Assembly (NCBI GenBank): GCA_022225965.2
Contig: JAKJXP020000067.1
Location: 62,001 to 126,000, forward strand
DNA: 64,000 bases
From: Diatrype stigma
Taxonomy: Eukaryota > Ascomycota > Sordariomycetes > Xylariales > Diatrypaceae
Direction: 5' to 3'
The notes under the pieces are model-generated. The model was not told the origin of the DNA. It searched no databases and was given only the letters and a program-made list of their open reading frames with translations. This document shows, one piece after another, positions 1,175-24,443 of the stretch (its first letter is position 1; each line of letters starts with the position of its first letter). A program made the position numbers and the translations under genes.

Positions 1175-3911
1175 CTAGACAATAAATCCCTGAGCCTTGA
1201 GAACCTCCCTAATCTTATCGAGTGCTGATCTCAATCCAGAACGATCTGATTCTTCCAGCAATTCTACAGACCCCTCGGTTGCCTTCACAAGCTCTGCTGC
1301 GTGTATCAGTAGATGCACCTTGGCTGTTTGGCGCCAGCATCTCGTGACGAGGATAAGCTCATTAAGGGGGGGAAGGGCAGGTTGTGGCGGTGTGTCGACG
1401 TCTTCCTCATGTTCTTGTTCCCTTTCCCTTTCCTTTTCCCGCTCCCGCTCCCGTTCCCGTTCCTTCCTGGCCTTCTCTGCTGCTTCTGCTGCATCGTGTT
1501 GGGCTTGCACGGCATTATCTCTAGCTTTGACACTGCTAGCCCACGGAAGAATCGCATAGTTTAATGTCCAAGCTCGCAATGCATTGTTGTAATTTCTTGC
1601 CATCGACGGTTCAATATGGTGTTCCCGTCCTGGCTCGTTGTACCATGGCTCTTCGCAAAGGATCATAGACTGGATGCTTACAAGCACCTGCAAGATCGTC
1701 GACTGGCCGGGGCGCCATGGCTCTCCGGACCACGTGCCGAGGAGGGAGAGACAGACTGTAAATCTTGTGTTAGCTAGTTACAGCAAGCTACCAACATACC
1801 ATTCATCATCAAACCGACTCCGGACCAGAAAAGTAGTGCTATGCGAAAGTAGTGGTATACTCTGCTTACCTTTCCCGTCTTCGTAAAGGTTAGGGTTGAA
1901 CCGTACCGTTCCTCCATTAGTGGTCATGAAACGCACACGTGGAGGAGAAACCGGGTAGTTTATTGGACAGAATAGATCGAATTCAAAGAACCCGTACTCA
2001 TAAGGTGTGCCCTTCGTGCCGATGATGAGAATCTTCATCACGTCTAAGCGAGAACTTCCGTGGCGTACATAGATACCCTCTGGAAGCGATGTAGAAAGAC
2101 TTGAGACTTCCGTGATCAGTCGTTTCATCCGACCGCGAGGGGGCTCCTGATTAACTGCCTGGCGTGCGAGGGCCAGAAACCCGAAATCATCCAATATGAC
2201 CTCGTCGGGCAAGTCCCTCACACTTGTCTCGCGGTGCCAGTCACTCAGGCTCAGGCGGGTTGGACCACTTCCTCCGCTGGTATCCATCTTGTAGTGGAAT
2301 ATATGTTTATTCTTATTGACCAGGTCTTTGACGTCGTGTAGTCTCCTACTGAGCGCTAGTATGTTCTGCCCGTTGGTGTCAGAGAATTCATCTGCGTGCG
2401 GGCATGCGTGCGTCAGGACCAAGTTGGCTTGCTCAGTAAAGGCGGATAGAAGGGTCGCGAGAGCCGATCCGGTATCTCTCATCGCCACCTTGGATGCAGT
2501 TATACTCTTTTTAGATTCGAATGAGATGTCAAGCAGACTGCCTCCCCTTTCATGGTACAGGGGACGGTCATCGTGAACGAGAGGGGTCGTTGCTGCATTA
2601 CCACTGAGAGCTACAACAAAGTCCAACATCCCTTCGTATATGAATCGCTGTGTGCTAGCAGCGTCGACGGAGTTGATTCTAAGCATAGTCGCCGCTCGTT
2701 CTAACAGTGGGCTGCGTGAGATGATTAGTGCCAAGTGGCCCGCTGGCGGAATATTGGATGTGCCACTGTGCTGATGTGACAATAGAACAGCTATAAGTTT
2801 GAAGTAGGCCTCCTATATTATGTTCTTGCGTCAGCATCTAGTTTGTAGAGAGGGGCTTGAGGTTTGCCGGTTGTTCTGGGACTGTTCGAGGATCTAGGCC
2901 GACAGGCTTGGCCTGTCAGACATTGTGTTTTCGAGGTAACGTGTGCGAAATATAAGTACATAGGGGATAACGCTTGGGTACTAACCTGGATGGGATCATC
3001 TTCAGGTGATATTTGCTTAGGTGATTCGACCTTCGGGGGTGGGGTGCAGAAGACCTGACACATCTCAGCATTCTTCAGCCCGTGTTCCCAACCGAGTGGC
3101 TATAGCTCATCCGATGCAATAGATAACTTGATGAACTTACAGGTTCCTGTGGCTGGGGAGTGAAGGAGGGAAATCCAAAGTCATTACCAGATTCATAGCC
3201 TACTCCTCTTGCAGTAGCTGATGGTCTGCTGGAAGACCTCAGAACACGGTCATGGATCTTGCCCACAACTTTGAGGTTGCGCATGGTCTCCAAGAGCCGA
3301 GACGGTGCACGGTGCCAGCCACAGCATAGTGCCCAGATTGCGAATAGTCTTCCCTTCGGACATCTGCAGCAGCTAACGCTTATTGGCTTCCCCTCGACCT
3401 GGATTGATGTGTTCGTGAATCCTGATACAGCCTTTCCACAACCCGGGCATGTGGTTCCTCTGCAGGATAGTGTCTTACAGGATAACCCGCATATGATAGC
3501 ACCTGAAGACAATAAGAGTTATCAACATGTATGCTGGTGTTTTGTACATTGAGGTGTTCGCGAGAGGCGCTGCTTTGTATGTCGTATACTTCACCATTGC
3601 AAATACAGTAGATGGAAATTGGACTTACCTTTGTCGATCGCAATCCAGCTCCTGGTCATTTTGACAACATCTCCAGGTTGAATTGATGCTTTCTTATGGC
3701 ACCCAGCACACGGGGTGGAAGTCACACTCTGGATAAAGTCCTGTAGCGGGACAAGTGTTTCTTGGATCGGTACGCCGTCCACAAGGTATAGTTCATCATC
3801 AGTTGAAGATGAACCAGAACCTTCCACTTTATCAAGTTCCATGGGAACCGGTCCTGTATCGTCGTGGACAACTTCCATCTCCCCTTCCGTGGAGTGGGAA
3901 GAGGGCGACAT
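1175..3911 (-). CDS. Large UBC-domain (E2-like) protein with Cys-rich N-terminal region
   Basis: Five exons: 3911-3629, 3502-3141, 3099-2986, 2812-1870 and 1755-1175, about 760 aa. A ubiquitin-conjugating fold lies near residues 480-640: SRLDVMKILIIGTKGTPYEYG, FFEFDLFCPINYPVSPPRVRF (two adjacent strands), FNPNLYEDGK, then VCLSLLGTW, whose Cys (about 569) is in the catalytic E2 position. The spacing fits large E2s of the UBE2O/BIRC6 type rather than 150-aa E2s; the HPN motif reads FNPN. Upstream, two cysteine-rich blocks (CAGC near residue 70; CGLSCKTLSCRGTTCPGC) look zinc-binding. The C-terminus has an RKERERERE-type charged repeat, visible as a polypyrimidine tract at 1410-1475 on the plus strand. 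The intron at 3100-3140 is only 41 nt, so that junction is less certain. An upstream ATG at 3947 would add 12 residues. Role inferred: ubiquitin or ubiquitin-like transfer. Confidence 0.85.
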
Positions 3912-5834: not shown

Positions 5835-8800
5835 TCATCTCCCGACGTTTTCCTCTATCCAACTCCACATCCGTAAGACCGACTTACGTTCCAAAGGGCT
5901 GACATGGGAAATAGTCTCTGACAGCAGGCTTGTGTTAGTCAGGTCAAATGAAGGTCCTGTTGTGACGTCTTCTTGCAAATGTAGCCCTCGGTCTTTCGGA
6001 CTTCCATCTCTTTCGCTGCCATACTTGGTTTTCCAGAACCCGAGAAGGCTTCGCGATGGATGGTTCTGTCCTTGACGCTCCAATGCCGCCTCTAGCCTTT
6101 GAAGCCATTCGTGCGGTTGCACGATATCAAACTTTGGAGGGCCGGCCTCTCGAACCACCCACTTGAGCATCTCGTTCCACGTGGGTGTTTCGTGCGGATT
6201 CAGCACATGGTATACCGGAACTGAGGATGCTGAGACATTTGGAAGCACTGAGACTCCTGGCGATGTTCTACTTCCACCCTGTGATATCCCCTTGGAGTTC
6301 TCGGGCAAGAGGATCTCCAACACTGCCCTAGCAGCGAGATCGACGCGTAGCCAACTGAGAGGCATGTCACCGAAGTCGGGTAAACACCCTGCGACCCGTG
6401 CCGTGGAAAGCATAAGCGGGTACGCTTCGCTGATGTTCCAGAATCCTGCTTCGTTTCCACAAAGCTGTCCAACCCGGATAATCGAAATGGGGGGTCGCTT
6501 GTGAACGCCTTTTGCTGCGGACTCGGTCTCTGAGTATGTATCGAATGCGGAAGAGCATATCCTCTCCGACACCCACTTGGATCTGGCATAACCTAGTGAC
6601 GACGAATCCATCGGGTCAGAGGAGATGGCTTCGGGTACTATCCCTCTCGGAGTGTTGGAAACAGCTGCTGTCGAACTAATGAAACAAAACTGTGCGCTGG
6701 CCCGCATGGCGAACTGGACCAGGTGGCTTGTTCCCCGGAGGTCATCATCGAAGGAGCTTAACCGAAGGCGAAAGTTCACTGTCCAGGCAGCGTGTAAGAA
6801 AAGTGTTGCTTCTTCTAAGATACTCTTTCTGATGTCCCCTGATAGCCCAAGGTTAGTATCTGATAATGCACAAGGCAGGCATACGACCCGCTCATCGAGA
6901 TGGGTAGGCTCTTCAGGCGGCTGTGATTTGGCTAGCCCACGCCCTGAGAGACTATTCAATACGCGCTCCTGAGCTGCCAACTGTGTTTGCGCTCGTGTAA
7001 GGCAGTAGACCTTGCGGACCCCCGGAGTCCTCAATAGCGAATGAAGTATGTGTGCGCCGAGCACACCAGTCCCTCCAGTGAGTACAATTACAGTGCCACT
7101 TTTCATCCCGCGGCAGGGGCTCGGTCGTTGAAAGCTTCCGTATCTGTCAGCAAGTTCCCACATTAGACTGAGTTCAACACCGTTATCTTCGACATCTCGT
7201 GTGCGATCACCGTGTCGTAGTCCCTTGATATAGCTCGCTAAGGAGTTGATGTTACCGCAATCGTAGATGATATTGACAGGCAATGGCAAAGATGACTTAG
7301 GGAGCAAGGTGTTCTCAATGAACCTCCGTACTTGTATACAAGCCATTGAGTCGACACCTTGACGATAGAGGTCCTCATCTAGTCTGACCTTATTCCCTAG
7401 AACATTGGAGAATTCGGCAGCTATTCGGAACGGCAGATCGCTGTCTAGAACCGTCTCGGGATCGCGATCGCCGAATGTACGATCGGAATCCCTGTATATG
7501 GACTCGATAACCTCTGCATAACGTTCTTGTGCTTGGCGCCGCAAGATGGTACCCTTACTGCTCTTTTCGAGAGGTTCTTCTCCTTCTGGCGTCTGGACGA
7601 TAGCCAATGCAGACTTCGATAGACGAGCATAGCTTGGGATGTTATGATTTATCTTCTCTAAGCAAGGCCACAAAGCCATAATCATATCCGCATACGAGCC
7701 AGCTCCCGGGTATACGAACAGTAGAGCCCCAGGATAATCTCTACCTGCCCCTACTATGAGGATATCTCGAAGCATGCCCGTCGAAGCTAAGACTGCACCT
7801 TCCACGGGAGAAGGGTCAAACTTCTTGCCGTTGGCTAAGGCAATCTGCGCATCGGCTCTGCTGTGATATCGCCAAGCGTTGAGAACTGTGGGATGTGCTT
7901 CGAACAAATCTGACGTCGCATAGGAACCGTCGCTGCGGTTTGTCTTCGTTCGCAGTGGCCATCCCGGCTTAACGATAAGCTCCGCCAAGCCGTCTCCCCT
8001 AGGCTCGAATGCTAAGAGACCCGGATCATCAATTGCGCGAAGGTATTGCCATTCAGTATCAGCGCGGTGATCTCGATGCGACGACATGAGGAATCCGCAC
8101 TCAGCGCTGCCCATTCGCGACACCAAATTGACGCCACTTGCTACCAGCTCATCGCCGATCGCGGCTGGCAGTGCTGCGCCACCAACTCCCACTATACCAA
8201 AACTCAGCAGAAGCTGGATGCCTTCGTCGTCGGATCCTAGCAATCGAAGGACAAAGGGCACCGACGAGAAGTACTGCACAGGACATGTGGAATTCTCGCG
8301 AGCGTATCTCACCGCTCTCTGCACATTGGTTCCAGTGATCGGGCAGTGGTCCTCGGGGAAGAGCCAGATCATGGCGCCGCTTGTCCATGCTCGAAAACAG
8401 TCAGCAAGCCCACCGTGATACAGTGGAGTCGTCGTGAACGTAGCAGCCTGGCTTTGCTTGCCGGCAAACCGCGGCAAAACTCCAACTGCTCCCCAGTGGC
8501 TCTGAAAGATGGGCTTCGGTAAGCCACTTGATGTCCCAGAGGTATGGCGGACGTAGGCGATGTCAAGTGTTCTAGGCCTGACTCTAAACCCTCTATCGAC
8601 GTTGAAACCCACCGGTAACAACGCATAGGAAGGGATTGTTTCGATTCTGATGTCGCCCCCGAGTTGGGTTACTCGAAACTTCGCAGTGTCATCCACGAAG
8701 ATCGTGTTGATGTGACAAGTATGACACAGATGGGCAATCGCTGTCGAGTCCAATTGGGGGCTGTTGAAGTTGAGTACGCCATTCTGTTACACCATTCCGT

Positions 8801-9270
8801 GAATAAGTACACAACTTGACCACTTACGCCAATAGGAAGACAGTGTACCCTAACTGCATGAAGCCAAACAACGTGAGAACGAAGTCTAGGTTACTCATGC
8901 AGATGAGACCAATGACCTGTGTTTCTTTGCATTGGCAAGACCCTATGATTCCTGCCAAGGCCTCAGCTGCGGCGATCGACAAGCCTCTCAACTGGTTAAA
9001 CGTGACCTGATTGCGTTCTATGGGCTAGTCAGGACGCCTGTCATCATCCTCGGAACTGGATACTGACGACTAACTTTGGTCTGTGGCACCTTGGGAACAG
9101 AAGTCCGCAAACCCGAGAGCGGGCTTATCAGGAAACAGCCGCGCTTGCTCATCGAGGAGCTCCAGGATCGTGTCAAATTGAGCTGGCTGCTGTCCTGGTT
9201 GATTCCTTTTCTTCCATTGTGAAGCTTGACCAAGTGTACACGTAAAGTAGTTCAGATCCTCGTGATCCAT
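5835..9270 (-). CDS. NRPS-like A-T-R enzyme (adenylation-thiolation-reductase), mycosporine cluster
   Basis: Three exons: 9270-9075, 9017-8828 and 8760-5835, about 1103 aa. The adenylation domain spans about residues 20-540: A3 core RHTSGTSSGLPK near 200, SDGSYATSDLF near 410, HSRADAQIALANGKKF near 430, A10-like KSSKGTILR near 532. After A3 comes TPLYHGGLA, as in aryl/acyl reductases, not the FDxS-type Asp motif that holds a free alpha-amine. A carrier domain follows (GVDSMACIQ, phosphopantetheine Ser about 600). The C-terminal half is a thioester reductase: LTGGTGVLGAHIL near 690, SSTAAV near 825, YARSKWVSE (Tyr about 853). There is no condensation or thioesterase domain. Such enzymes adenylate a carboxylate, load it as a thioester and release it reductively with NADPH as aldehyde or alcohol. 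Its place beside DDGS, O-MT and ATP-grasp genes suggests it reduces the amino-acid carboxyl of a mycosporine (inference). Confidence 0.9.
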
Positions 9271-10218
9271 TGTGACTCAGGGCCTTTACAGAGAACCAGT
9301 GGATTGAAGATCGGAATGGCCTTGACCTTGGCATGGAGCATTGCTAGAAAACAACTGCCTCGTAAGCAACGCAAGCGTTTTACATGAACCTGCTTGTCAC
9401 ACTCTGGTAGCGAGGTATTGGTATCTGCGATGATGGGGTGCCGTGGAATCGTATGCTCGATCTGACCAAATCAAATGGGTGTTCAGTAACGCTCCCATTG
9501 AGCGAGTTGCTTTTGTACTACTTAGAACGCATTCCTTCATGGATGAGGATTTCGATGAGGTCATGACCTGATGAAGTGCATCAAGAAAGAAGTCCAATTA
9601 GACTTTCTCTTGAACAGACGGGCATAAGAGTCGGCCACATTACTGGTCTCTCTTAGAAGGTATTCTGAGTCCTACCCCTCCTATTCCGTTACGTAGGATA
9701 CTCAGTGCTTCACTACTACATACTTATACAATATCCATTTCATTCCGACGAGTAGTGAAGTTGAATTCGATTTGACTCCAGGTCAATCCCAGCTCGAAGA
9801 TTTAAGAGGCCGGGGCTACCGATTCGGGCCGGCACTGGCGCACTGCTTTATAGACAACTAGTCTAACCTAGCTAGGTACTGGCTACTTGAATTTGCGTAT
9901 TCCAGGAATGTCGATTTAAAAAAATTCACAGAGAACGAACAAGATGCCACATGCTTCCAGTCGTTATTATCATAGAATCTAGATATTCGGTCCTTGGTGG
10001 GTGCCATGGTCCATACAGCCTGATACAGGTACTATCCCCTCTTTCGACCTGTACCTGTATTTGCCGACCTACATACTTAGTTAGACACCTGCGTGACGAT
10101 TGCTTCATTCGTTCTGTTAGCCGGCTCGGTACATGTGCAGACTAACCTGATGCAGGAATTGGTGATGAATCTGATTGGTACAAACCCTGCTAGCCTTTTC
10201 GATGCCGGCCCCGAACCT

Positions 10219-10254
10219 CAATGCAACCTTGGCAATTCAATGCAACCTTGGCAA
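10219..10254. repeat. Direct repeat, 17 bp x 2 (19-bp period)
   Basis: CAATGCAACCTTGGCAA occurs at 10219-10235 and again at 10238-10254, separated by TT. The two copies are identical and lie upstream of the small hydrophilic gene. Confidence 0.85.
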
Positions 10255-10403
10255 CCAGGATATCTTATGACACGGAGCTATGAACTGTGGCTTAGGTAGT
10301 ACGTAAAGTGGTGGAGTGGATGTTCCAGTTTCCAGGTTTTGTTGCTGCCAGTCGACTCATCGTGCCCAAATGACATCATATCATTCTTGTGAAACATCTG
10401 CTT

Positions 10404-10443
10404 CCACAACTCAGCTGCCACAACACAGCTGCCACAACTCAAC
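10404..10443. repeat. Short tandem repeat, 14-bp unit
   Basis: The unit CCACAAC(T/A)CAGCTG is present as two full copies and a partial third, with one mismatch. It lies in the 5' region of the 10767 gene. Confidence 0.8.
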
Positions 10444-10766
10444 CGGGCTAGGTCATAGGCGTTGCGCCCAGTCGTACGATACCAGTCGTACAATGCCAGC
10501 CGTGCCTGCCCATTCCGGGTGAACCAGTTGCATAACAAGCCTTCCAACCCCGCCTTGAGACCTGCCACGCATTGCTCCCCTCTTCAACTTCTTCAATAAC
10601 AACTACTACTACTTCGACAAACCTACACAGCACCAATAACGATTCAGCGATATCTCCAAATCAAGGCGTAGCAAACCTAACAGCCTTTTCAGCATATCTC
10701 ACCTACCTACGAGAATACCCACCTACGCGCGAATACGAGAACACACCTACACCCACCTGTCACATC

Positions 10767-11180
10767 ATGGACTTCGTCAACAAGCTTACCGGTGGCTCCA
10801 AGGATGCTGAGGACAAGAAGCAGCAGGAGCAAACCAGCCAGAACCAGGAGAGCAGTGGTGGGGGCTTCATGGACAAACTGAACGGGCTCGCTGGTGGCGG
10901 AAAAGAGAGCGAGAAGGATGAAGATGCACTTGACAAAGGTTCGTTGCTTCCTGCGGCCTCTTATATCTATCCATTAGTGATCTTGTCACCGCTGACGCCT
11001 GCTGGTTGGTGATATGTAGGGGTGGACTGGGTCCAGGAGCACGTCTTGGGCCAGGGAGACCAGAGCAACGAGAGTGCTGTCGAGCAGGCCAAGGACGAGA
11101 AGATCTCCGACTTCATCCGCGGCCAGTACAAGTCGCAAACCGGAAAGGATGTCCCTATCGAGGACAAGGGGAAGTTCTGA
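10767..11180 (+). CDS. Small hydrophilic conserved fungal protein inside the mycosporine cluster
   Basis: Two exons, 10767-10938 and 11020-11180, encode about 110 aa. The protein has no signal peptide or membrane segment and is very rich in Gln, Lys, Glu, Asp and Gly. It opens with MDFVNKLTGGSKDAEDKK; a second similar block, GFMDKLNGLAGGGKE, looks like an internal repeat of the start. The C-terminal half (VDWVQEHVLGQGDQ, then AVEQAKDEKISDFIRGQYK and the tail TGKDVPIEDKGKF) resembles small fungal proteins that I know only as uncharacterised or stress-linked; I cannot name the family with certainty. The splice restores an uninterrupted amphipathic C-terminus, so the gene is probably real. It lies between the A-T-R and O-methyltransferase genes, but position alone does not prove a role in the pathway. 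Confidence 0.75.
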
Positions 11181-12060
11181 TCCACTGGAACGACATCGCA
11201 CCTATCCGTGCAAGCCGATCAATGGCAAACGGAAAACGGAGATGAAGGGAGAGGCATGATGACGCATAAGCTAGCATGGCATGCGGGAATGATTCTATAA
11301 ATCGACTTCGTTTTGCTTTGTTATCCACCGCAATACATCAGGTAAAGTAGGCTTGTGAAAAGTATGACTTCGTGATTAAGGGGAACCAGAACATGCGCAC
11401 TGTATACCCTTTCGATGACTATGCTTAATACGAAGAGCTATCTGACTTCATTGTTTACGGTAATTGGATTCTAGGACTTTAGTACTGAATAAACTTGTTT
11501 AATAGCTGGCATATGAACCCCATAGTCTCCATGCGTGCCCACATCCGTTCTTCCTAGCGGCTGTACAACCCCCTTTCCTGACTACCTCTGAAGTAGTTCG
11601 TAGACGGATAGCCTAACCCACCTTCCCCGCCTTCCCCACCATGAAGCTCACCCCTATTTCCCATATATGATGTACAACTCATTACCATTACTGTTCGTGT
11701 GTGGTAGCATCCCGCCCCTTATGCTAAGTAATTCCGTATCAAAAAAAGTGCCGGGGCTAACGTTGTCAAAGATATATTGTAAAGTGTATTTCATTGTTGG
11801 GTGGATTTATATTATATTACTCGCGAGATGTGCCCCAGAAATCCGTTTGGCAGAAGAATTCTTGACAGTAGAATTGTGTTTGAACACAAGAGCATCCCAC
11901 CCCAATAGCTGAAGCCATGATAGTAAAGATGATGCCTACCACATACCCGAGTGAAGAGCCTACCATGTACGTGAGATTCGACCAGTCTACCCCGTATATC
12001 AGCCTCTCACCAATCTCTGCAACATGCCCTGTTTCCGTCCAAACCAGATTGAAATCAACT
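11181..12060. other. Intergenic region, convergent gene ends
   Basis: Between the stop of the small-protein gene and the stop of the methyltransferase gene. Frames here continue past the methyltransferase intron boundaries (for example 11817-12060 on the minus strand) but show no conserved residues after the spliced stop. Nothing else is seen. Confidence 0.5.
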
Positions 12061-13040
12061 TCAGGTTTCGATCCCGATGCATCTTGTAATTTCCAACGCG
12101 TCCTATGATGTATCAGTTTGAACATAACAGGCAGTAAGGAGATCGCTTCACTGACCGGTACACCACTAGGCTCCAAACCATCGACGAATTTGCTTTCATA
12201 CACAAGGTCTGGGTTACCCTTTGGATTTGATCCGTGCTCTTCCCTGAGTTTATCTCTCTTTTGCTCGACAGTGCTGTTCACATACTCTAAGTATGGAGGA
12301 TTCCCTGGCTTGACCACTGGTAAAAATACATTAGTAACGCATCGACCTGTAATCCTTTCCCTTTCCTGGATATATGATCCTACCGTTATCAGCAGCGTAC
12401 ACCGAACCAGGGCCGACAAGACCTAGCTCTTCGCACAGCTTCAGGTCTGCCGTATAAGCTGGTTTGTAATGGTCCAGGAACAATAGGTCAATGCGACTGA
12501 GCTCGCCGCTCTTTCGAAGGCGTCTCAACGAGTCGGAACTGGCACCGATGACAACCGTCACTAAATCTCGCAGTCCGGCGAGATCCACCAACATTGATAT
12601 GACCGCACCGAACTCAGGATTCATCTCTAGACTGTAATATCTTTTCCCGTCGACCTCTCTCAATGCCGCAGCAAATGCTATGGCAGAATAGCCAACGTAG
12701 CCACCTAACTCGACCATGACTTTCGGTTTCTCCCTTTTGATCAAGTCTACCACGGTCTTCGACTTGTACTTCCCGATGTTCATCAGGTATTTCTGTGTCC
12801 TACCGTACTCGTCGATTGCTTCAAGTACCCTCTGTGGGTTCCCACGCATCTGCTCCAACTTAGGGTGGTTGTAGATGAAGTGCAAGAGTGCGATCTCCCG
12901 CCCATCGTTGAACTGCAATACCCATGTGTTAGTAGGTCTGTACGAGTACATCACACTGACAGCCTAGCCTAAGAAAATGTACTGACGTATACGTCTTCTT
13001 GAGGCTGATAGACCTCATCATGCAACGATTTTGGATCCAT
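12061..13040 (-). CDS. Catechol-O-methyltransferase-like SAM methyltransferase, mycosporine cluster
   Basis: Four exons: 13040-12987, 12912-12384, 12316-12156 and 12102-12061, about 261 aa, the normal COMT length. The first intron has a textbook CTACTAACAC branch site. The N-terminus reads FNDGREIALLHFIYNHP; the SAM motif is VMVELGGYVGYSAIAFA; the acidic ribose-binding strand is YYSLEMNPEFG; then IDLLFLDHYKPAY and VYAADNVVKPGNPPYL, matching the COMT pattern LDHWK...ADN..PG with its metal-binding Asp and Asn. The C-terminal exon completes SGVPDALEITRC. The predicted role is O-methylation of desmethyl-4-deoxygadusol to 4-deoxygadusol (inference from context). The fold is the animal-COMT type, unlike the CCoA-OMT-like MysB of cyanobacteria as I remember it. 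It is divergent from the DDGS gene, with an 840-bp spacer. Confidence 0.92.
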
Positions 13041-13880
13041 TGCACAGGTAAATACGCAAGCACGGGATATTTCGTCTCGATGGATTGCAATGGGCATCGA
13101 ACGCGTTACTACCTAGCATAAGTACCACAATACCTCAACACTTAGACGTGGAACTGTTAGACACCTAAACCCAATTGTGCATGCAAATGCGCCGTGGTCC
13201 CCCGTAGCGGCAGAGCGTGTGAGCCGTTCACATCCCCCACGTGGCCTCGATAGAATGTGATGTGTCACTATGCAACGGCCTTGAGGTCATCGACTTTTGA
13301 TTCGTTCTGAACGGATCCTCATCTCTAGCGACCAGATAGCTAGATCCCCTGGAGTCTCGAGATCACTGTTCCTCAACTAAGACCTGGTTCCTAGGGATCT
13401 GAGACATGAGACGGGTGATCCCAAGCTCGGCAATCTAGTTTAACTACACGCCAGTGAGACTAGCCCGAGATGTACTGCTCGCGTTTATGCGGATCAGGGG
13501 CCATACCGAAGTCTAATGGGTCTTGGCGACCTAACGTTTGGACGAAAACAGCTAAACATCGCGGGTAGAGACACACCACCTATCTAGACATTGCAATTGT
13601 CTTTAAGATGACAGTCGATTGCGGCTTTTAGTGCTAACATGTGAAGTCTATTGGGTCGATAGCTGTAAGTCATGACGATTCCATTGACGTCCTGAGCAAT
13701 TGTTTCCGTAATCGAGCATGAGCTGCAAGTTTCGTGAAGGCCAATCGGTAAGAGTGCTTATGTGACGATTGTGTGAAGGGGGTTTATTAAGGTTTCTGTC
13801 CTCCCAAATGTGACTTGGTCTCGCATCTCATCCCATCCAACACTCGTCTGGTCTTCACCTACGAATCTATCCGGCACATT
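13041..13880. promoter_or_regulatory. Divergent promoter of the O-MT and DDGS genes
   Basis: An 840-bp non-coding spacer between the start codons of two divergent pathway genes, well placed to co-regulate the first two steps. It contains a CACGTG E-box at 13238-13243. No coding frame, tRNA or long repeat is seen. A regulatory function is inferred from position only. Confidence 0.5.
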
Positions 13881-15524
13881 ATGTCTGACCTTAAGGCTAA
13901 CGTTTCGGAGACTGAGCATGGCTTTCATGTGGAGGGCTTCGAAAAGATCGAGTACGACTTCACCTTTCTAGACGGAGTCTTTGACATCTCAAACTCCAAT
14001 CTTGCCGACTGCTACAAGAGATGGGGACGTGTACTTGCTGTCACCGATAAGAATGTCTGCGGCATCTATGGTCAGAAGATGGAACAGTATTTCCAACACT
14101 ACGGTCTCGAGCTCAGGATTCATAAGACGTCCATTGGCGAGAAGGCTAAGACAATTGACACCTTCTTAAGCATTTGCGATTCCATGACCGACTTCGGAAT
14201 CATTCGCAAGGTGTGCTATGTAGTCCAGCCGAGATATATACCCTACATACTGATCTATACACAGGAACCTGTCTTGGTGGTCGGAGGTGGTCTTGTCACT
14301 GATGTCGCTGGGTAAGAATATCTATCGCCCCTGAAACTTGCAGGGAGGCCACCCACCAACAAAGCAACGGAGCTGACGACGGGAGCTAGATTTGCCTGTG
14401 CGGCCTATCGTCGCAACACGAACTTTATCAGAGTACCTACGACCGTAATTGGCTTGATCGATGCCAGCGTTAGCATCAAAGTCGCCGTCAACTATGGTCG
14501 GTACAAGAACCGACTCGGCGCATATCACGCGCCCATGCACACGTTCTTAGACTTTTCCTTTTTACGCACCCTGCCGATATCACAGGTTCGAAACGGGTTC
14601 GCAGAGCTTATCAAGATCTCGTCGTGCTCCCATCTTCAAGTATTCGACTTGCTCGACAAGTTCTGCGAGCAGCTCATCGAAACCAAGTTCGGTAGAGCCA
14701 ATGGCTCGCCGGCTGAAGTCCGCCAGGCCGCGGATATCGTGAGTAACTGAGATATTTCGATATGTGCTGCCGGCTAACACATCCAATGTATAGATCAACC
14801 GTGAAGGCATTTATGAGATGCTCAAGCTCGAGTCGCCCAACTTGCACGAGATCGGACTGGACCGGGTAATTGCCTACGGTCATACGTAGGTCGCCACCCA
14901 AACTCTATGCAAATACGTACGCAGTTCTCACGTTGATTTAGGTGGTCACCGATGCATGAACTCGTGCCTGAGACACCGCTCCGCCACGGCCATGCCATTT
15001 CCATCGACATGGCGTATTCGGCAACTTTGGCCAACCAGAGAGGTCTATTATCCAACGACGAGCACTCCAGGCTTCTTACGCTGTTTTCGAGAGCTGGTCT
15101 ATCCATAGACCACCCACAGTTCGACGAGGAAATACTCGACAAAGGCACGGCAGCCATCTTGAAGACCAGAGATGGCTTGTTGAGACTTGCCGTGCCCAAC
15201 CCTCTTGGGACATGCACTTTCCTCAACGACGTATGCGCCCAGGAACTGCGAGATGCCCTGCGCAAGCACAAGGAGATCGCTCAGACATACCCCCGTGAAG
15301 GCGCCGGGTTGGAAGCCTACGTCGACAGCAGCGACACGGGCTATGCGGACAACGAGACGGAAAATCTGGGCGTGGAGCAGGCTGCTAAGGACGCGGGCAT
15401 CCTGTCGGAGACTCAGACCGTCGGTAACGGCCTGATGGAGATGAATGGAAGCAGTGGGCATGCCAAAGGTTTACTCAGAGGTCACGCTAAGGAGTTTGTC
15501 GACGGCGTCAAGGCCCAGGCATGA
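13881..15524 (+). CDS. Desmethyl-4-deoxygadusol synthase (DDGS, MysA-type sugar phosphate cyclase)
   Basis: Five exons: 13881-14210, 14265-14311, 14390-14738, 14794-14885 and 14942-15524, about 466 aa. The ATG at 13881 gives [18 protein letters not shown] at the N-terminus, the opening expected of cyanobacterial DDGS. Dehydroquinate-synthase fold motifs follow: [16 protein letters not shown] (NAD-binding), [63 protein letters not shown] and [10 protein letters not shown], whose His residues are metal ligands. The signature GLIDASVxIKVAVN with YGHTWSP fits DDGS rather than DHQ synthase or animal EEVS (GLIDAGVGIKNAVN). Established reaction: sedoheptulose 7-phosphate to desmethyl-4-deoxygadusol. 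The first intron is 54 nt and in frame, so an unspliced reading is possible, but splicing restores [13 protein letters not shown]-terminal tail of about 70 residues exceeds the bacterial length. Confidence 0.95.
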
Positions 15525-16271
15525 GTGAGTACCTTGATGATAGATCTTGTGTAGCAGGCGAAGTATATTATTCGCACGTTTCGGATACACGTAGCTTAAA
15601 TACATGAAATACTGCTGTTTCTGGCTGGGAAAGCCTTGACGCTGAACTTCGTTAACCGTAGACGAAATCAAACCACTTTACCTAACCGCTTGGGTGCTTC
15701 AGCAACCATAAACCTCTGAGGAAGGAGTTCGTAAGTACAGTCGTTGTTCCACCGCTGCGATCCCGCAGACTTTTCTCCGACGGTGTGAGACAACATTGCA
15801 AGATGTTGACGCAATGGACATTCACATGCCAGGGATTTATCACAGGACGAATCTCGCCTGCACCCAGGGGATCCACAATGCATGTCGAATATGTCTCGCT
15901 TCATGGATGAAAGCGTATTTAGGTGATTCATTAAGGTTATATTGTAATAGCTTGCATCTCCCCTACACCGATACCCTGGCTCCAAATCATCGTAATCCGA
16001 AACCCTAGGCAGCTGTATTCCACGCAGGTATATCCTGGCTCGCTCCCCTATACTTCCGCCGAGAGCCGACACCGTGTCGAAAGAATGTTGCTGGAACCAA
16101 ACTAGCCACTGGAGAAAATCCACCCACGCTGAACTGCGCGTCGACCTTGTGTCAGCAGCAACATATGGGCTAGGCTTTTCGTCTGGGCGACATAGAACAA
16201 GCAAGTTGGATATGCTCATCTATAGCGCCTACGTTACGCCATCGTTGTCATTTGGCCCGAGTCCTCACAAT
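15525..16271. other. Intergenic region between DDGS and ATP-grasp genes
   Basis: About 750 bp. The ATP-grasp reading frame is open back to 16074, but residues encoded before the ATG at 16272 show no family similarity. The stretch should hold the DDGS 3' end and the ligase promoter. Nothing else is seen. Confidence 0.5.
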
Positions 16272-17846
16272 ATGAGTTGGTCATCTTTTGCCATAGAGAC
16301 AAGGCCCCTAGCTCTTGTTTTTCTCAGTATCCTATGCCTACCGGTCTCCCTCATCGTGACATTATTAGCCCATGTCACGATACCAGCCCCGTCAGACCCT
16401 CAGCCAAAAGAATCCGCCAAGAAGCTTCGTAATGGACAGCAGCATGCCGAGCAACATGAGATGCCGAGACGTGTCCTCATTACTGGCCTTGGAATGGCCA
16501 AAGGGCTGACCCTTGCCCGGGCATTTCATCTGTGTGGACATCGTGTCATTGGAGCTGACTTTGAGGGCTCCGGTATCCCGTGCCCTGGTCGCTATTCCAA
16601 GGCACTCTCGACATTTTACCCATTGGAGAAGCCAGGCTCCAAAGATCCTGCTACTACGTATATTCGACGCCTTGCTGAGATAGTCGAGACGGAGAGCATC
16701 GACCTTTGGGTGTCATGCTCAGGGGTAGCCAGTGCTGCGGAAGACGCCCTTGCGAAAGAAGCAATTGAGAGGCGGACATCTTGTACCTGCGTTCAATTCG
16801 ACGCTCAGACTACCTTAAGATTGCATGAGAAAGACTCCTTCATGCAGGAAACTAGGAGACTGGGCCTGCCAATCCCCCAAAGCCATAGCGTGACTTCCCC
16901 GGACGACATCTTGAAGATTCTTGCAAGTTCGATAGTATCAGACCCGGACCGAAGGTTCATACTTAAGCCGATCGGCGTCGATGATGCTCACCGTGGCGAC
17001 ATGACATTGTTGCCATGCACTTCACTCGCAGAAACCAAGGCCCGAGTAATGCGGCTGCCTATCTCGCCCGCCAGGCCTTGGATCTTGCAACAGTTCATTC
17101 CGGGTGGCGAAGAGTATTGTACGCATGCCCTGGTTATCCGTGGTGTGGTAAGATGCTTTGTGGCATGCCCTAGCGCCGAGCTCTTGATGCATTACAGCGC
17201 GCTGCCTACGACGTGTGCATTATCCAGAGCGATGCTGGCATTCACGCGCGAATTCGTTGCGCGATCACCGGACCCCGAAACGTGGACGGGCCATTTGAGT
17301 TTTGACTTCATGTTCGAAGATGGTGTCGCGAGTGAGAAGGGGTTCGAGAAGAGACTGTATGCTATCGAGTGCAACCCTCGGGCGCACACGGCAGTTGTGT
17401 TATTCAACCAGTATGGTCCAGCGATGGCCGCCATGGTTAGGGCCTATATATCGGCTACAAGCGGGGGCCTGGTACAAGAAGACTCGAACGGCAACAGACG
17501 ACATGTAGGCCAGAACGACGACGACGGTGTTCAGGACTCGTTGATAGTACCACCTGTAGCGACCCCGCCTCGATACTGGATAGGTCATGACTCGGTGTCT
17601 CTGGTGCTACATCGTGCTGGCCATGTAATAACAGGTCATCTGGGGGTGAGCGAGTTCCTCGCTGGCCTTGAGAGCTTTATGGTTCACGTAGGAACCTGGA
17701 AAGAGGGCACATTTGATGCCTGGGATCCCTGGCCAGCTTTTGTGCTGTATCACGTATATTGGCCCCTGACTATCTTGTCTGCTTGGTGGCGCGGAGACCA
17801 TTGGAGTAGAGTCAATGTCAGTACGACGAAAATGTTCGCTAGATAA
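16272..17846 (+). CDS. ATP-grasp ligase, MysC type (4-deoxygadusol amino acid ligase)
   Basis: A single exon of 524 aa from the ATG at 16272, chosen because it directly precedes a hydrophobic segment that cyanobacterial MysC also has. Residues about 12-38 (RPLALVFLSILCLPVSLIVT onward) form a membrane anchor. The catalytic part begins VLITGLGMAKGLTLARAFHL, then GHRVIGADFE, RYSKALSTFYPL, KDSFMQETRRLGLPIPQSHS, RFILKPIGVDDAHR, PISPARPWILQQFIPGGEEY, GHLSFDFMFEDG and YAIECNPRAHTAVVLF. The last holds the Glu-x-Asn pair that binds Mg-ATP in ATP-grasp enzymes. Established role of MysC: ATP-dependent attachment of an amino acid (glycine in cyanobacteria) to 4-deoxygadusol, giving a mycosporine. Here the amino acid is unknown; serine, glutamine or glutamate would match known fungal mycosporines. 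The gene follows DDGS on the same strand. Confidence 0.93.
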   Translation: MSWSSFAIETRPLALVFLSILCLPVSLIVTLLAHVTIPAPSDPQPKESAKKLRNGQQHAEQHEMPRRVLITGLGMAKGLTLARAFHLCGHRVIGADFEGSGIPCPGRYSKALSTFYPLEKPGSKDPATTYIRRLAEIVETESIDLWVSCSGVASAAEDALAKEAIERRTSCTCVQFDAQTTLRLHEKDSFMQETRRLGLPIPQSHSVTSPDDILKILASSIVSDPDRRFILKPIGVDDAHRGDMTLLPCTSLAETKARVMRLPISPARPWILQQFIPGGEEYCTHALVIRGVVRCFVACPSAELLMHYSALPTTCALSRAMLAFTREFVARSPDPETWTGHLSFDFMFEDGVASEKGFEKRLYAIECNPRAHTAVVLFNQYGPAMAAMVRAYISATSGGLVQEDSNGNRRHVGQNDDDGVQDSLIVPPVATPPRYWIGHDSVSLVLHRAGHVITGHLGVSEFLAGLESFMVHVGTWKEGTFDAWDPWPAFVLYHVYWPLTILSAWWRGDHWSRVNVSTTKMFAR

Positions 17847-18634
17847 GACCCCCGAGCTATCGGGAAGCAGTCTGGCTCTATTCCCTCTGATTCATTGGTC
17901 TGGCTGGGTGAGAATATGGATTAAGCGGATTAACTATTTCTGCTGCCCTACCATTTACTGCCCTGCCATTTGTGCGAGTTTCAGCGGATGCATTAGACAA
18001 TTGACAGACTTGTGGATGACAGCGGCAAACATGAATGATTGGAAACATCCAGGCAGTGGCAGGGGTTACAGCTCGAAAGGGCTTCAAGGCTGTTTATTCT
18101 TCTGGTTGACGCTGCTTGAAACGTGATCTAACATATCTCTCTTGTTCGTATCGCTGTGATGAGTATGTAAAAGAGAAATAGGGGCATCACAAACTGTAAG
18201 TATGAGACCGCTTTACCTACACCCACCCAAAGCTCACCACGGGATATGGATGTATAGACATACATGCACCTAGGCTCCTGCTAGATTAGTGGCCAACAGC
18301 TTAGCGTGAGTGTATGTAGTGTGTAAATAGTGTCTATCGTACCTGTAGTTAGTGCACCTGTAGGCGAACAGCGCCTTGCGAGGCACCTAACTACGGTAAA
18401 TGGATAGCAAATACCTCGTAGGTACATGGAATGACGTAATTACCGGGGAAGGATGACTAACTACAGCCTGGTATCTTCGTATCTTGTGCCTCACAGCTTC
18501 ACCAACAACATCCACCTATTTCCTCATCTACGTGATTTTGTCTCTTCTGGATAACAACTAGGAAACTTGTAGGTAGAACAAGACAAGACGTCAGGCTCTT
18601 CCGTCCTTATCGGCCACCAGTTCATCCGGATTGC
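17847..18634. other. Intergenic region, right border of mycosporine cluster
   Basis: About 790 bp between the ligase stop and the Nudix gene. It has several ACCTGTAG/CTAGGTA words near 18270-18430. No frame looks coding, and no RNA gene is seen. Confidence 0.45.
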
Positions 18635-19384
18635 ATGCCTCTCCATTTCAATTTGTCACCAAGCCTGTACATGCAGCGGCCTTATTCGGTGACTCGGTCC
18701 TTACTAGTAGCTCTGAGTTCGTTTGCGCACCAACCACCGTATCCGGCCCAACCATTCAGCATGTCGCACAAAACCCAGGAGCCGATCATCAAGAAGGTGT
18801 CGGAATTGCCAACCGACCAGGCCAAATGGGTGACACTCCAGAAGGTGGACTATGTTGACCAGGTGGGCAAAGAGCGCACGTGGGAGGTGGCTACCCGGAA
18901 GACACGGGGCAAGGCCGGAGTCGATGCTGTCGCCATGGGAAACATCCTCTTGCATCCGTCGCGCCCGCCCTCTACCCTCATTGTCATCCAGTATCGCCCG
19001 CCCCTCGACTCCTACACCGTCGAGTGGCCCGCCGGTCTCATCGACGCCGACGAGACCGCCGAGGAGGCTGCAGTGCGGGAATTCAAGGAGGAGACCGGGT
19101 ACGACTGCCGCGTCTTGAGCGTCAGTCCGGTGCAGGCCGCCGACCCCGGCATGACGAATGCGAACATGCAACTGGCCATGGTGGAAGTTCAGCTGAAGGA
19201 GGGCGACGAGGAGCCGGAGCAGAGGCTTGAGGACGGAGAGCACATCCAGCGGGTAGTTGTGCCCCTTACGGAGTTCTACGACCGTCTGGTGGAGTACTCG
19301 AAGCAGGAGCGCATGATCGTCGCCGCCAAGCTCTTCCACTTTGCAGCCGGCATGCACTTCGCGCAGACACAGAAGTACTTCTAA
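18635..19384 (+). CDS. Nudix ADP-ribose pyrophosphatase (NUDT5/YSA1 type)
   Basis: A single exon of 249 aa from the ATG at 18635, or 207 aa from 18761. The Nudix box is complete: GLIDADETAEEAAVREFKEE followed by TGY, with the REx2EE glutamates. TLIVIQYRPPLDSYTVEWPA upstream and DPGMTNANMQLAMVEV downstream are typical of the ADP-ribose pyrophosphatase subgroup, which hydrolyses ADP-ribose to AMP and ribose 5-phosphate. The extra 42 N-terminal residues before MSHKTQEP are hydroxyl- and Arg-containing with few acids, so they could be a mitochondrial presequence or merely 5' leader; I cannot decide. The gene is GC-rich and core-like, and marks the end of the mycosporine locus. Confidence 0.92.
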   Translation: MPLHFNLSPSLYMQRPYSVTRSLLVALSSFAHQPPYPAQPFSMSHKTQEPIIKKVSELPTDQAKWVTLQKVDYVDQVGKERTWEVATRKTRGKAGVDAVAMGNILLHPSRPPSTLIVIQYRPPLDSYTVEWPAGLIDADETAEEAAVREFKEETGYDCRVLSVSPVQAADPGMTNANMQLAMVEVQLKEGDEEPEQRLEDGEHIQRVVVPLTEFYDRLVEYSKQERMIVAAKLFHFAAGMHFAQTQKYF

Positions 19385-20291: not shown

Positions 20292-21793
20292 TCAACTCGC
20301 TCCCTTGCGAAGCTTGAACCCCCCAGGACACAATGTCTGGAACACGCCATTCGGGTCGTATGTCTCGGCGACTCTTTCCATCAGCTTTACGTTCTCTTCA
20401 CCATAACTTCTGAGTGGGCCCTGGCTCCGATCCGCGTAGTTGATATAGATCCAGTCGAGGAGACCTTTCTCCGCTTCCGCAAACTGCTTGATGGTTTGAA
20501 TACCAGCCTTGACCCTTTGGTATGCGAAGTTATCTTGGTCGGCGGTCTTCACCATGGCATTCAATTGCAGAATGAATCCATCAAAACCGTTGTGTTCAAT
20601 GCCTAGAACATTGCCGCCCACCTCAACTGAATGCTTCGCAAAGGTTAAGGGCAGAGGCTGAAATATGCATTGGGTGTAGAAATCTCCTTCGGGGATATAT
20701 GATTTCAGATCGTTGACAAGGAGATCGTGAACCTCTGCAGCCTTACACATGATTCGCGTATCATTTTTAATAGTCAGCGTGAACCAAGTAGCACTTTCAT
20801 CAAGCCAATGGCTATTTCTCTGTACTGATGTGAATTAAAGACTTACTACAGATTGTAAGGCAGCGCTGTTTCAAGACCCATTTCCAAAATGGACTTTGGC
20901 TTGGTTGTTGTCATCATCGTTGGTAACTTGGACCACTCCGCGAACGCTGGAGCATCTTGCCTGCCTTGCGTCTCGACTAGAGCCCCCCCGATGATAATAT
21001 CTTTCACCTGTGGAACATAGTTTATGCCAGCGATCAAACTGCTACCAAGGTGGCTTGGTAGGTTCGTCGTAAACCTCGCCACAGCACGAATCGCGTCCGG
21101 TATATGTTCCTTCGATGACATGGTGGTACCTCCCCAGATGTTCTGATAGGGAATAGTGCTCATTGTGAAGCTCACAGCAACCCCGAAGTTGTTAGACCCA
21201 CCCTTTAGAGCACGAAACAGTTCATCGTGCGCGCCCTTCTTTGCCGTGACGATATGGCCATCGGCCAAAACTACGTCGTACGACACGACGTTGTCGCAGG
21301 CAAAGCCCTTCTGCGCAGTGAACCAGGTGTTTCCTCCGCCTAGGAGAAATCCCGCTACACCAGTTTCACCTTCCCTGCCGCCAGCAACGATGCGGCCGTG
21401 TTCCTGGAGCACAGTGTAGATATGCTTCCAGCGAACACCCGGGCCAAAAATCACCAGCTCGGAATCGCCATCATACTGGATGCTGTTCGAGTGACTCAAG
21501 TCGATGGTTACTCCGCTTTGCAGGTTATTTGAGCCGGCAAGAGGAGCATGGCCGCCACTGCGAATAGCAATTCTTTCTTTGGCAGTGACCAGTGCCTTGA
21601 TGGCCATAGATACCTGCTCGGCGGACTTAGGGATAAAGACACAAGTAGGCTGCAACTTTGCCGTATTGGAAAACTACGATTCTATGCTTGCTTGGTATGC
21701 TGGGTCTTGAGGCGTGAACACATGCGCTTGCAGTCCGGCCTCTGTCAAGCAAGCAACCGGAGGGGGCTGATGATGCACAGTTCCAGCATCCAT
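20292..21793 (-). pseudogene. Berberine-bridge-type FAD-linked oxidase, interrupted by an in-frame stop
   Basis: The recognisable sequence runs from an ATG at 21793 (MDAGTVHHQP, then LTEAGLQAHVFTPQDPAYQ) to the stop at 20292. An in-frame TAG at 21676-21674 falls after IES, where the family usually has an aromatic residue before the LQPTCVFIPKSAEQV strand. Downstream the FAD-binding PCMH domain is intact: IRSGGHAPLAGSNN with the flavin-linking His, VTIDLSHSN, FGPGVRWKHIYTVL, GFLLGGGNTWFT and GGSNNFGVAVSFT. The C-terminal BBE segment is intact too (INYADRSQG, YDPNGVFQTLCPGGFKL). Joining the two downstream parts needs an intron of only 35 nt (20846-20812), below the usual fungal minimum. A shorter protein could start after the TAG but would lack the N-terminal cap and any signal peptide. 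A sequencing error is the simple alternative. Confidence 0.75.
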
Positions 21794-22889
21794 TACTAGT
21801 CTATCCTTAGGTACACCACGGAAAATAGTGGCAAACGTATATCAAAATCGGAAGGCTATTAGTTCAAGAGACTCAAGTACAATAGTCACGCCTGGGGATA
21901 AGAGGGCACTGCACTGGTGGGTAGCACGCCCATAAGTATTGAAGCCAGCCTGCCTGAAGATAATGGTGCAAACTGTATAGGGGGTTGTCCACGAGTATCC
22001 ACCAACCCACCATGCAGCACCTACCCAACATGAGAATCCTGGTGCTTGAAGCTTAAAAATTACCGCCAGCCTGGCAGACACAAAATGGACCATGCTATGC
22101 AAGGGATGATTGGGGGTTGTGCTTGGACGAAGCGAGGGGCGGTTTGGGTGAGGTCCACATATCTACGCGCACAACATTTGACTTGCACCAACAGGAGGCT
22201 CGGCATCTTCAAAAGCGGTTGGCTCTCCAGTAGGGAACTTTGCAAGGATACTTGTAGTAATGGGTGTCAATCAAGGCTGCAGTTATGATTAACTAGCATA
22301 GCTAGCTTGTCAGCTGAAAGTTACAACTCCGAGCCGTACGGGCAGGCCTTGTGTCTGACCTGTTTAAGGACCGATGCCAATCCATCAGGAGTTGTTGCAT
22401 GAGTAGTTGACATGGGCCTTTGTTGTGGTGCGGTGCAACTTATATTTGAATATCGGCCAGTTACGGATCCATCCCTCATAGTCCTTTCATCTTCAGTAGT
22501 CCTCCCCATTTGTTGTCAGCCGTACTGAAACAATGTTCACAGCAAAGGGGAGAGGTTTGCCCATCTGGGTCAGTAGGTTTGCCTGGACCGACAGCCTGGA
22601 CCCCCCCTGCCAGCTGCGTCGGGTTAATGTTAGCAGCAACAGCTTGCCAACCAAGTAGGGGTAGGGGTGTATACATGAGCAATAAGCGCAATTGCCAGAT
22701 ATTATATTACACGAGGTAGGTAACATTCAAATCTATAAGGCAGGAAGTGAATAAATTGACACATTGGTGTCCAGCCTTGAAACTTTTATATACACTGCGA
22801 ATAATCCACCACGACAAAGATAATTAATACCTTGCATTCTCCCACTGCCCACTTCCATTGGCAGCCCCAGAGACCGGATCAAGCCTAAA
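21794..22889. other. Intergenic region
   Basis: About 1.1 kb between the start of the broken oxidase and the stop of the small secreted protein gene, both on the minus strand. No supported gene, RNA or long repeat is seen. Confidence 0.45.
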
Positions 22890-23424
22890 TCACTTGCTCG
22901 CATCGGTAGCAAATACATAAGTTTCCTTTCTGTCGTCAGCAATCCAGGCGGTACCTCCCGCCCGCCTGTCTCCGTTGAGGATTCTGCCGCATCTGTTCAC
23001 AATAAGCATGAGCCGGTCATGAAGTTTATCACACTCGATGACATTATTAGCTCCGTAGTTGGTAGTGCCAATATAGATCGAATAGCCATCTATCAAGATA
23101 CAGTTTATTAGCAAAATGCCCATACTCACACCAGTAGGGTTACACAACGACTAAGGGTTCCTTACCGCCAGCTACGATCCTGGCCTCACCACCATCAGAA
23201 GTTGGCTCGCAGTCCTGAGTCATAGATAACATCTTCGTGGCCCCGACTTCGATGTTCGAAGTGCCGGGGGAATGGTCGCCGGTGTAGCAAATGACAGCGT
23301 TATCTCCGTCGCCAGGTAAAGGGACCGATACACCCCGGGCGGCGAGGCCCTCCCCAAAGGTCACATTTTGGTGGGTGGGAATTGCAGCAGCTGCGGCAGC
23401 GAAAAGAACGAAAGAGGCCTTCAT
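22890..23424 (-). CDS. Small secreted protein, effector-like, unknown family
   Basis: Two exons, 23424-23166 and 23089-22890, encode about 152 aa. The N-terminus MKASFVLFAAAAAAIPTHQ is a clear signal peptide, with cleavage likely around residue 15-20. The mature part has about four cysteines (VICYTG, QDCEPT, IECDKL, NRCGRI), which could make two disulfides. After the splice the protein reads VAGDGYSIYIGTTNYGANN and DRLMLIVNRCGRILNG, then GTAWIADDRKETYVF. The order of an acidic Cys-rich start, a hydrophobic helix with a Cys, and a C-terminal strand recalls KP4-like secreted proteins of fungi, but this is a faint visual resemblance and not a claim of family. Expected to act outside the cell. 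The gene has an (AT)n tract about 135 bp upstream. Confidence 0.72.
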
Positions 23425-23560
23425 GGTGGATAGTGTAGTTCGAAGGTTTCAAGGTCTCAAGTGCTGAAGTTCAGACTTCAATAGTAAGGGTTATGGGAAG
23501 TCGGGATAGTGGGCTTAGTTGGTTGAGTATCTACTGCCGTACTGGAGGGAGGATCGTGTG

Positions 23561-23583
23561 ATATATATATATATATATATATA
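23561..23583. repeat. (AT)n dinucleotide tract
   Basis: An uninterrupted AT repeat of 23 bases, 137-159 bp upstream of the secreted protein start. Confidence 0.95.
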
Positions 23584-24360
23584 CAAATAGCTCAGGGGCA
23601 TTGTACTATACACGCAACTACTCCAGCTTTGACCCTCAGTTCAACATACTTCTTCCTTCCCCACCACTTCGCCGCCTTACCGGAGGTTCGGAAGTTATAC
23701 CCCCCATGGCAAAACCTGGAGTTTGCGGCTGTATGTTAGCTAATGACTGATCGAACAGTAGCAGCGGCAAAGCTCTCTGAAAACAGGGCCTAGTACGTCG
23801 TAAGTTGACCTTAACTACGTAATGTATAATACGTAACTCCATAATACCGCCTTCTCTGACCAATGTCTTAGAGCACAAGCCACCAACGCACAGGCCTCCC
23901 CCCATACTTTATTCTGTCGTTGCCCGGAATGCCCCAAAATATGTGCCGCATGATATTTAACTCATGATTATACTGTTTTTTGGTAGCAGAGTCTTTACAT
24001 CTCTCCACATAATTAGCTCTATGGGGCTCTTTCCAGTACCGTTCTTTCCACCTTCCTAAGTATGGACGATCCCGTCAATGACGGATTGCTTTATGATGAT
24101 GATAGGCAAGCAGAAGATACAATTCACGCGACGGAAAATGACTTGTGATTGGGAACTCTGTCAGCCCTGAAAAGCAACACAGATCAACTGGACAAAATTA
24201 GAAACATTCTCGGTAGGGGAGAGAACGATCTTGTATCCAGCGGATGTAGTTGCTGCCAATAGGCTTCCGAGCTGCCCGGGATGCCCGAGATCTGCCGAGA
24301 TGCCAAGGTGCCGAGCTGCTGAGCCACCACCCACCCACTCGTAGGATTATAGCTAGCTAC

Positions 24361-24443
24361 GAAGGTCGGGGCCAAAAGTTCCCGCACCAGTAAAGTACCA
24401 AGTATAGTGCGCAGGAGTGCGGGAACTTTTGGCCCCGACCTTC
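24361..24443. repeat. Perfect 27-bp inverted repeat (hairpin)
   Basis: The left arm 24361-24387 starts GAAGGTCGGGGCCAAAAGTT. The right arm 24417-24443 is its exact reverse complement. The 29-base spacer is unrelated. It could be a tiny MITE-like insertion, the terminal inverted repeats of a deleted DNA transposon, or a structured transcript. No target duplication longer than TA-like bases is evident. Confidence 0.9.

Follow-up and report, generated by a model that had tools for sequence, protein, structure and literature searches.

A predicted mycosporine gene cluster of the ascomycete Diatrype stigma carries, next to its three core genes, a gene for an adenylation-thiolation-reductase (A-T-R) enzyme. 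The window analysed is a stretch of 64,000 nucleotides of contig JAKJXP020000067.1, part of the 49-Mb Diatrype stigma assembly; its positions 5835 to 17846 encode the A-T-R enzyme, a COMT-like O-methyltransferase, a 2-desmethyl-4-deoxygadusol synthase (DDGS) and an ATP-grasp ligase. In gene models built with clean GT..AG introns all four genes are intact when spliced, the catalytic motifs of the A-T-R enzyme are in place, and its linkage to the core is conserved among fungi. On balance, the A-T-R enzyme is likely to be a conserved fourth cluster member that converts the carboxyl group on the amino-acid part into an alcohol and so yields serinol- or glutaminol-type mycosporines; what we infer are the substrate, the four-electron outcome and the order of events (reduction after ligation, not of the free amino acid). 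The genes are as follows.

5835..9270, minus strand: A-T-R enzyme, 1103 aa (exons 9270-9075, 9017-8828, 8760-5835)
12061..13040, minus strand: COMT-like O-methyltransferase, 261 aa, MysB role by homology (exons 13040-12987, 12912-12384, 12316-12156, 12102-12061)
13881..15524, plus strand: DDGS, 466 aa, MysA role by homology (exons 13881-14210, 14265-14311, 14390-14738, 14794-14885, 14942-15524)
16212..17846, plus strand: MysC-like ATP-grasp ligase of 544 aa; helices are predicted at residues 23-56, before the enzyme domain

The cyclase reaches a bit score of 508 to 5tpr, which we take to be the Anabaena DDGS (its PDB title reads 3-dehydroquinate synthase), as against 234 to 4p53 and at most 114 to 3-dehydroquinate (DHQ) synthases, i.e. 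more than twice the score of the next cyclase and more than four times that of any DHQ synthase; identity as an EEVS or a DHQ synthase is ruled out by these scores. It is the only close match in the whole genome; the one other hit lies, at 29% identity, within a 1587-aa frame. The O-methyltransferase gene, 0.84 kb from the DDGS gene, matches Methyltransf_3 of Pfam at 9.3e-12. The ligase has no Pfam hit above the cut-off, and its assignment to the ATP-grasp fold comes from fold comparison; because the ligase lies below the sensitivity of Pfam, a search of the genome with ATP-grasp_4 gave no match. An earlier scan for bacterial DDGS loci found none; with the 5tpr stretch, which matches Nostoc/Anabaena loci holding relatives of the ligase and the methyltransferase, 66 bacterial DDGS loci were fetched. 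Ligase relatives occur in 65 of the 66 and methyltransferase relatives in 57, and the fungal trio is therefore of the mysA-mysB-mysC kind. By homology, all three genes of a fungal mycosporine cluster (DDGS, O-methyltransferase, ATP-grasp) are present. The initial annotation had proposed just this combination, a DDGS, a COMT-like methyltransferase and a MysC-type ligase with an adjoining A-T-R gene, and the intact spliced models, the scores and the fold bear it out.

It is hardly conceivable that the trio ends at 4-deoxygadusol or another cyclitol instead of a mycosporine. For Diatrype the evidence does come from genes, but the scores favour DDGS over EEVS, the ligase is assigned the ATP-grasp fold, and the same trio is reported to make a mycosporine in Phaffia, by deletion and by expression in yeast (PMC10057719).

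In the ligase model, helices lie ahead of the ATP-grasp domain and an NVSTTK tail is invariant in 22 of 22 aligned rows; the predicted N-terminal helices and the tail would fit membrane attachment. The deposited Diatrype ligase model (P0242, 405 aa) is without both ends.

By protein search, the A-T-R enzyme as modelled is identical to a protein deposited for Diatrype stigma. Its domains follow in the order adenylation (A), thiolation (T) and thioester reductase (R), as in the A-T-R enzymes or fungal carboxylate reductases (CARs). The C-terminal domain is NAD_binding_4, a reductase, by which a thioesterase-ending MysE is ruled out, in agreement with what had been read from the sequence at the outset. 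The structure model has a mean pLDDT of 76.9 and a pTM of 0.52, for which reason its domain folds were used and its domain arrangement was not. Among 119 aligned A-T-R rows, E349, D413, R430, K531, S600, Y853 and K857 are found in all and H244 in 118; the catalytic His of motif A4 (H244), the phosphopantetheine Ser (S600) and the Tyr and Lys of the R domain (Y853, K857) are all present. Reduction of a carboxylate with ATP and NADPH is the predicted activity.

The distribution of the gene among fungi argues for a place in the cluster. Protein searches with the A-T-R enzyme, DDGS and the ligase gave 889, 3255 and 1487 matches; what follows concerns the best 120 of each, among which an absence is a weak sign, above all for Xylaria, lichens, Leotiomycetes and Dothideomycetes. 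Relatives are clusters at 90% identity, so that a true link can be missed in multi-strain clusters (Apiospora arundinis, Pyricularia oryzae, Seiridium). Genes were taken to share a contig when contig size was identical and species name matched, sizes being entered by hand and names matched by eye; this status gives no distance, which comes only from locus tags and run-on gene models. The 120 A-T-R relatives comprise 51 species-named ones outside Hypocreales, 55 from genera that we take to belong to Hypocreales, and 14 without species name.

Among the 51, 42 share a contig with a DDGS or a ligase of the same species (41 of 50 without Diatrype itself), the partner being DDGS in 33 cases, the ligase in 34 and both in 25; one of the 14 relatives without species name is linked as well. 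By chance, 2.4-3.1 would be expected for one gene and 4.9-6.3 for either of two, with a maximum of 17 in 200,000 draws, and on contigs below 1.5 Mb the count is 24 of 30 as compared to 0.9 expected. The chance model takes contig size over a genome of 35-45 Mb and treats related species as independent, which they are not, so these figures overstate the contrast and serve as a guide. The linked species spread widely, from Pyricularia to Xylaria, and in seven genomes the locus tags of the cluster genes are 1-4 apart.

Apiospora marii: 9726 (DDGS), 9727 (ligase), 9729 (A-T-R)
Apiospora saccharicola, two genomes: 4448/4450/4452 and 3024/3026
Apiospora hydei: 1698/1700
Pestalotiopsis fici: 12759/12761/12763
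Pyricularia pennisetigena: 09129/09130
Xylaria curta: g783/g784

Three gene models, from Whalleya, Daldinia bambusicola and Xylaria curta, start with the ligase and continue into the A-T-R enzyme, so that D. bambusicola counts as linked, too. Gene order varies: the ligase gene adjoins the A-T-R gene in several species, while in Diatrype stigma it lies beyond DDGS. As arrangements differ between species, the linkage outlives rearrangement, and a gene group kept despite rearrangement indicates a shared function. The check put forward by the initial annotation, whether the gene stands beside the core in related genomes, comes out in its favour, a shared contig being found for the large majority of the named relatives outside Hypocreales.

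That the A-T-R gene is a neighbour without part in the pathway is accordingly very improbable. Such genes are common, 21 other stretches on 16 contigs of the Diatrype genome matching the A-T-R enzyme (the best-scoring 33% identical), and in Diatrype a short reading frame separates it from the methyltransferase gene. Against this stand the excess of linked relatives over the 2.4-6.3 expected, on which a chance neighbourhood is rejected, the close locus tags in seven genomes of different gene order, the three run-on models and a correlated divergence: in the 34 linked species compared, A-T-R distances rise with those of DDGS (Mantel r 0.69, a value reached in 0 of 5000 shuffles). Such a correlation is expected if the genes travel together, and vertical descent alone could also give it.

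As to the reaction, homology would assign ring closure from sedoheptulose 7-phosphate to DDGS, the step that yields 4-deoxygadusol to the methyltransferase, and the attachment of an amino acid to 4-deoxygadusol to the ATP-grasp ligase. The mycosporine-amino acid so formed would have a free carboxyl, for the A domain to activate as an adenylate. After transfer of the acyl group to the phosphopantetheine arm on the T domain, the product would be released by the R domain with NADPH in two hydride steps, first as an aldehyde and then as an alcohol.

In A domains acting on amino acids, the free alpha-amino group of the substrate is anchored by an Asp in motif A4 (residue 235 by GrsA numbering). In the A-T-R rows this position, matched to GrsA by motif and not by alignment with GrsA, is His244 and not Asp in 118 of 119, which sets them apart from amino-acid-activating non-ribosomal peptide synthetases (NRPSs), and an Arg (R344) holds a pocket position, likewise matched by motif, in 118 of 119. 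His244 and R344 would fit an acid whose amine already sits in an enaminone. His244 speaks against the rather unlikely alternative in which the A-T-R enzyme acts first, on free glutamine or serine, and the ligase then joins the resulting amino alcohol to 4-deoxygadusol, since the Asp for the free alpha-amino group is lacking; the occurrence of mycosporine-serine alongside reduced mycosporines in one fungus, reported for Pyronema omphalodes with its glutamicol and glutaminol-glucoside forms, also suits a reduction at the end (PMC4665425). In favour of that alternative, the authors of the Phaffia study state that the ligase takes glutaminol (PMC10057719), and Fusarium relatives of similar pocket, unlinked to the core genes, would make an amino alcohol for another use.

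Reduction of the ligated mycosporine down to the alcohol is compatible with the R domain. Its Gly893 is found in 119 of 119 rows and recurs in the R domains of 4dqv, of MxaA, an alcohol-forming enzyme, and of NcCAR, in contrast to the Asp of the bacterial CAR 5mso, where that residue acts as a gate. The R domain of NcCAR is reported to make alcohols (PMC10168641), and Gly893 would permit alcohol formation without proving that outcome.

Several observations weigh against the proposed role. The first concerns the A domain itself: the Glu of motif A8, reported to be essential in NcCAR as E433 (PMC5826065, PMC10168641), is a Lys (K441) in 118 of 119 rows and an Arg in one, as judged from A8 and pocket positions matched to NcCAR by motif, its A domain being outside the alignment. 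A paralogue in the Diatrype genome keeps NGEK at this motif. Together with the near-invariant pocket Arg, the change from Glu to Lys marks a subfamily of its own, which lends something to an alternative that we regard as improbable, namely that the enzyme belongs to the cluster but gives an undescribed product, via an aldehyde that cyclises or condenses or by reduction of another acid attached to the mycosporine. In Hypoxylaceae, moreover, NRPS-like mycosporine-type clusters are said to have unidentified products (PMC8403587). However, among the reported features of fungal mycosporines, the simplest to call for a carboxylate reductase is the carboxyl reduced to an alcohol, as in the serinol, glutaminol and glutamicol forms (PMC4665425).

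A second difficulty is the Phaffia trio of DDGS, O-methyltransferase and ATP-grasp ligase, which on its own is reported to yield mycosporine-glutaminol when expressed in S. cerevisiae, identified by co-migration in high-performance liquid chromatography (PMC10057719); the A-T-R enzyme is hence not needed everywhere for the amino alcohol. In the accessible text of that paper, LC-MS (liquid chromatography-mass spectrometry) was the only one present of the mass-spectrometry terms looked for, in the title of a reference.

Further points against come from the relatives that are not linked. None of the 55 Hypocreales relatives (44 from Fusarium) among the 120 best is linked to a DDGS or a ligase, yet their pocket is similar, with the same His, Arg and Phe, Leu-Ala at 247-248 being replaced by Phe-Pro in most. 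As Hypocreales share most of the pocket without the pathway among the matches listed, the substrate may be more general than a mycosporine. Moreover, two Fusarium models, P0080 and P0093, continue into a pyridine-nucleotide oxidoreductase, with a Zn-cluster domain in addition in P0093. In Xylariaceae sp. FL1272 the A-T-R and DDGS genes are listed on contigs of different size, and Monosporascus has DDGS and ligase at adjacent locus tags (P0124/P0243, P0129/P0244) with no A-T-R among the 120 best; its ligase is the closest named one after that of Diatrype.

In a FastTree phylogeny of 119 of the 120 A-T-R rows (one row of 844 aa was dropped), for which checks warn of meeting long branches, Diatrype included, all 43 linked rows (42 named and one without species name) fall into one half of 56 rows; the other half, 63 rows of Hypocreales, Plectosphaerella, Parathielavia and six without species name, holds no linked row (support 99). 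Seven named rows of the linked half are unlinked by shared contig: FL1272, Seiridium, Daldinia EC12, D. bambusicola, Apiospora arundinis, Pyricularia oryzae and Pyricularia CBS133598. The two sides of the A-T-R family may use a similar substrate in two different pathways. The expectation that the A-T-R gene would keep pace with DDGS is therefore upheld among the linked species, by the correlated distances, and does not extend, among the 120 best, to Hypocreales and Monosporascus.

The remaining features in and around the cluster are these.

1175..2812, minus strand: ubiquitin-conjugating enzyme-like gene, left flank, probably not in the cluster (UQ_con in two adjoining open reading frames)
10767..11180, plus strand: spliced short reading frame (gene model), 110 aa, between the A-T-R and methyltransferase genes, a candidate cluster member only
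18536..19384, plus strand: open reading frame with a NUDIX domain (4.5e-13), right flank, probably not in the cluster
20292-21673: pair of FAD-binding oxidase open reading frames (domain matches)
26091-27196: P450 exons (domain matches)
29268-30830: GMC oxidoreductase (domain matches)

The 110-aa frame, without a Pfam match, has a high content of Gly, Gln, Lys and Asp/Glu and might encode a small stress protein, whether co-regulated or not. Both flanks look unrelated to the four genes, and the FAD-binding oxidase, P450 and GMC oxidoreductase genes (20292-30830) possibly form a separate oxidative cluster.

The serinol and glutaminol side chains of fungal mycosporines have been known for decades, and the A-T-R enzyme is a direct candidate for their reduction. 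More tentatively, and with somewhat less than even confidence, it could be the missing carboxylate reductase of ascomycete mycosporines, acting on the finished sunscreen and not on a free amino acid, turning the side-chain carboxyl into an alcohol and so setting the amino-alcohol chemotype that separates these fungal mycosporines from the cyanobacterial ones. If so, the carboxylate reductases would gain a member that may take a substrate already decorated, bulky and polar, which would be useful for sunscreen production in yeast. The gene is kept beside the core in Xylariales, Apiospora, Pestalotiopsis and Pyricularia, to which Monosporascus offers a natural contrast.

With the cyanobacterial mysA-mysB-mysC loci the Diatrype cluster shares a DDGS accompanied, as counted above, by relatives of the methyltransferase and the ligase. 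In MysE, which attaches a second amino acid, the last domain is a thioesterase, whereas the Diatrype enzyme ends in a reductase. The A domain of the latter gave no match in the 66 bacterial DDGS loci, with five weak reductase-like matches of at most 45 bits; this query is weak for distant A domains, as it found none even of the MysE type. A core of the mysA-mysB-mysC type with an A-T-R enzyme in place of MysD or MysE is supported, the action of that enzyme in the pathway being a prediction. The Fusarium A-T-R proteins among the 120 best, one of them named nrps11 by its source, are 45-51% identical and similar in the A-domain pocket; they differ in the missing linkage, in falling on the other side of the tree, in the two oxidoreductase run-ons and in the Phe-Pro mostly found at 247-248. 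From NcCAR (PMC5826065, PMC10168641, as far as their accessible text goes) the Diatrype enzyme differs by the Lys in place of E433, the pocket Arg and the tie to DDGS genes.

In the open-licence literature, as far as its text was accessible to search, no role of an A-T-R enzyme in mycosporine synthesis was found, nor any enzyme named for the side-chain reduction of fungal mycosporines, and among the 12 listed of 381 matches for Diatryp-, Hypoxylon, Apiospora, Pestalotiopsis and Monosporascus mycosporine is mentioned only in PMC8403587. The initial surmise that no described mycosporine pathway uses an A-T-R enzyme stands as far as a role is concerned, but the association is not wholly new (PMC8403587), and the fungal three-gene core was already known and tested in Phaffia (PMC10057719). 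The Phaffia rhodozyma cluster has the same three core genes and an amino-alcohol mycosporine (glutaminol) as reported product; it differs in having no A-T-R gene, the source of its reduced side chain being left unexplained in the accessible part of that report (PMC10057719). In Hypoxylaceae, NRPS-like genes are reported to be able to form clusters for mycosporine-like amino acids, with homologues in most genomes of the family, and two clades of four clusters each are tied to "yet unidentified mycosporine-like compounds" (PMC8403587). In the accessible part of that source neither enzyme role, gene order nor product is given, and the reference is an actinobacterial cluster; the likeness lies in the tie of NRPS-like genes to mycosporine-type clusters, and these are probably the same kind of locus as that of Diatrype stigma, seen from the NRPS-like side.

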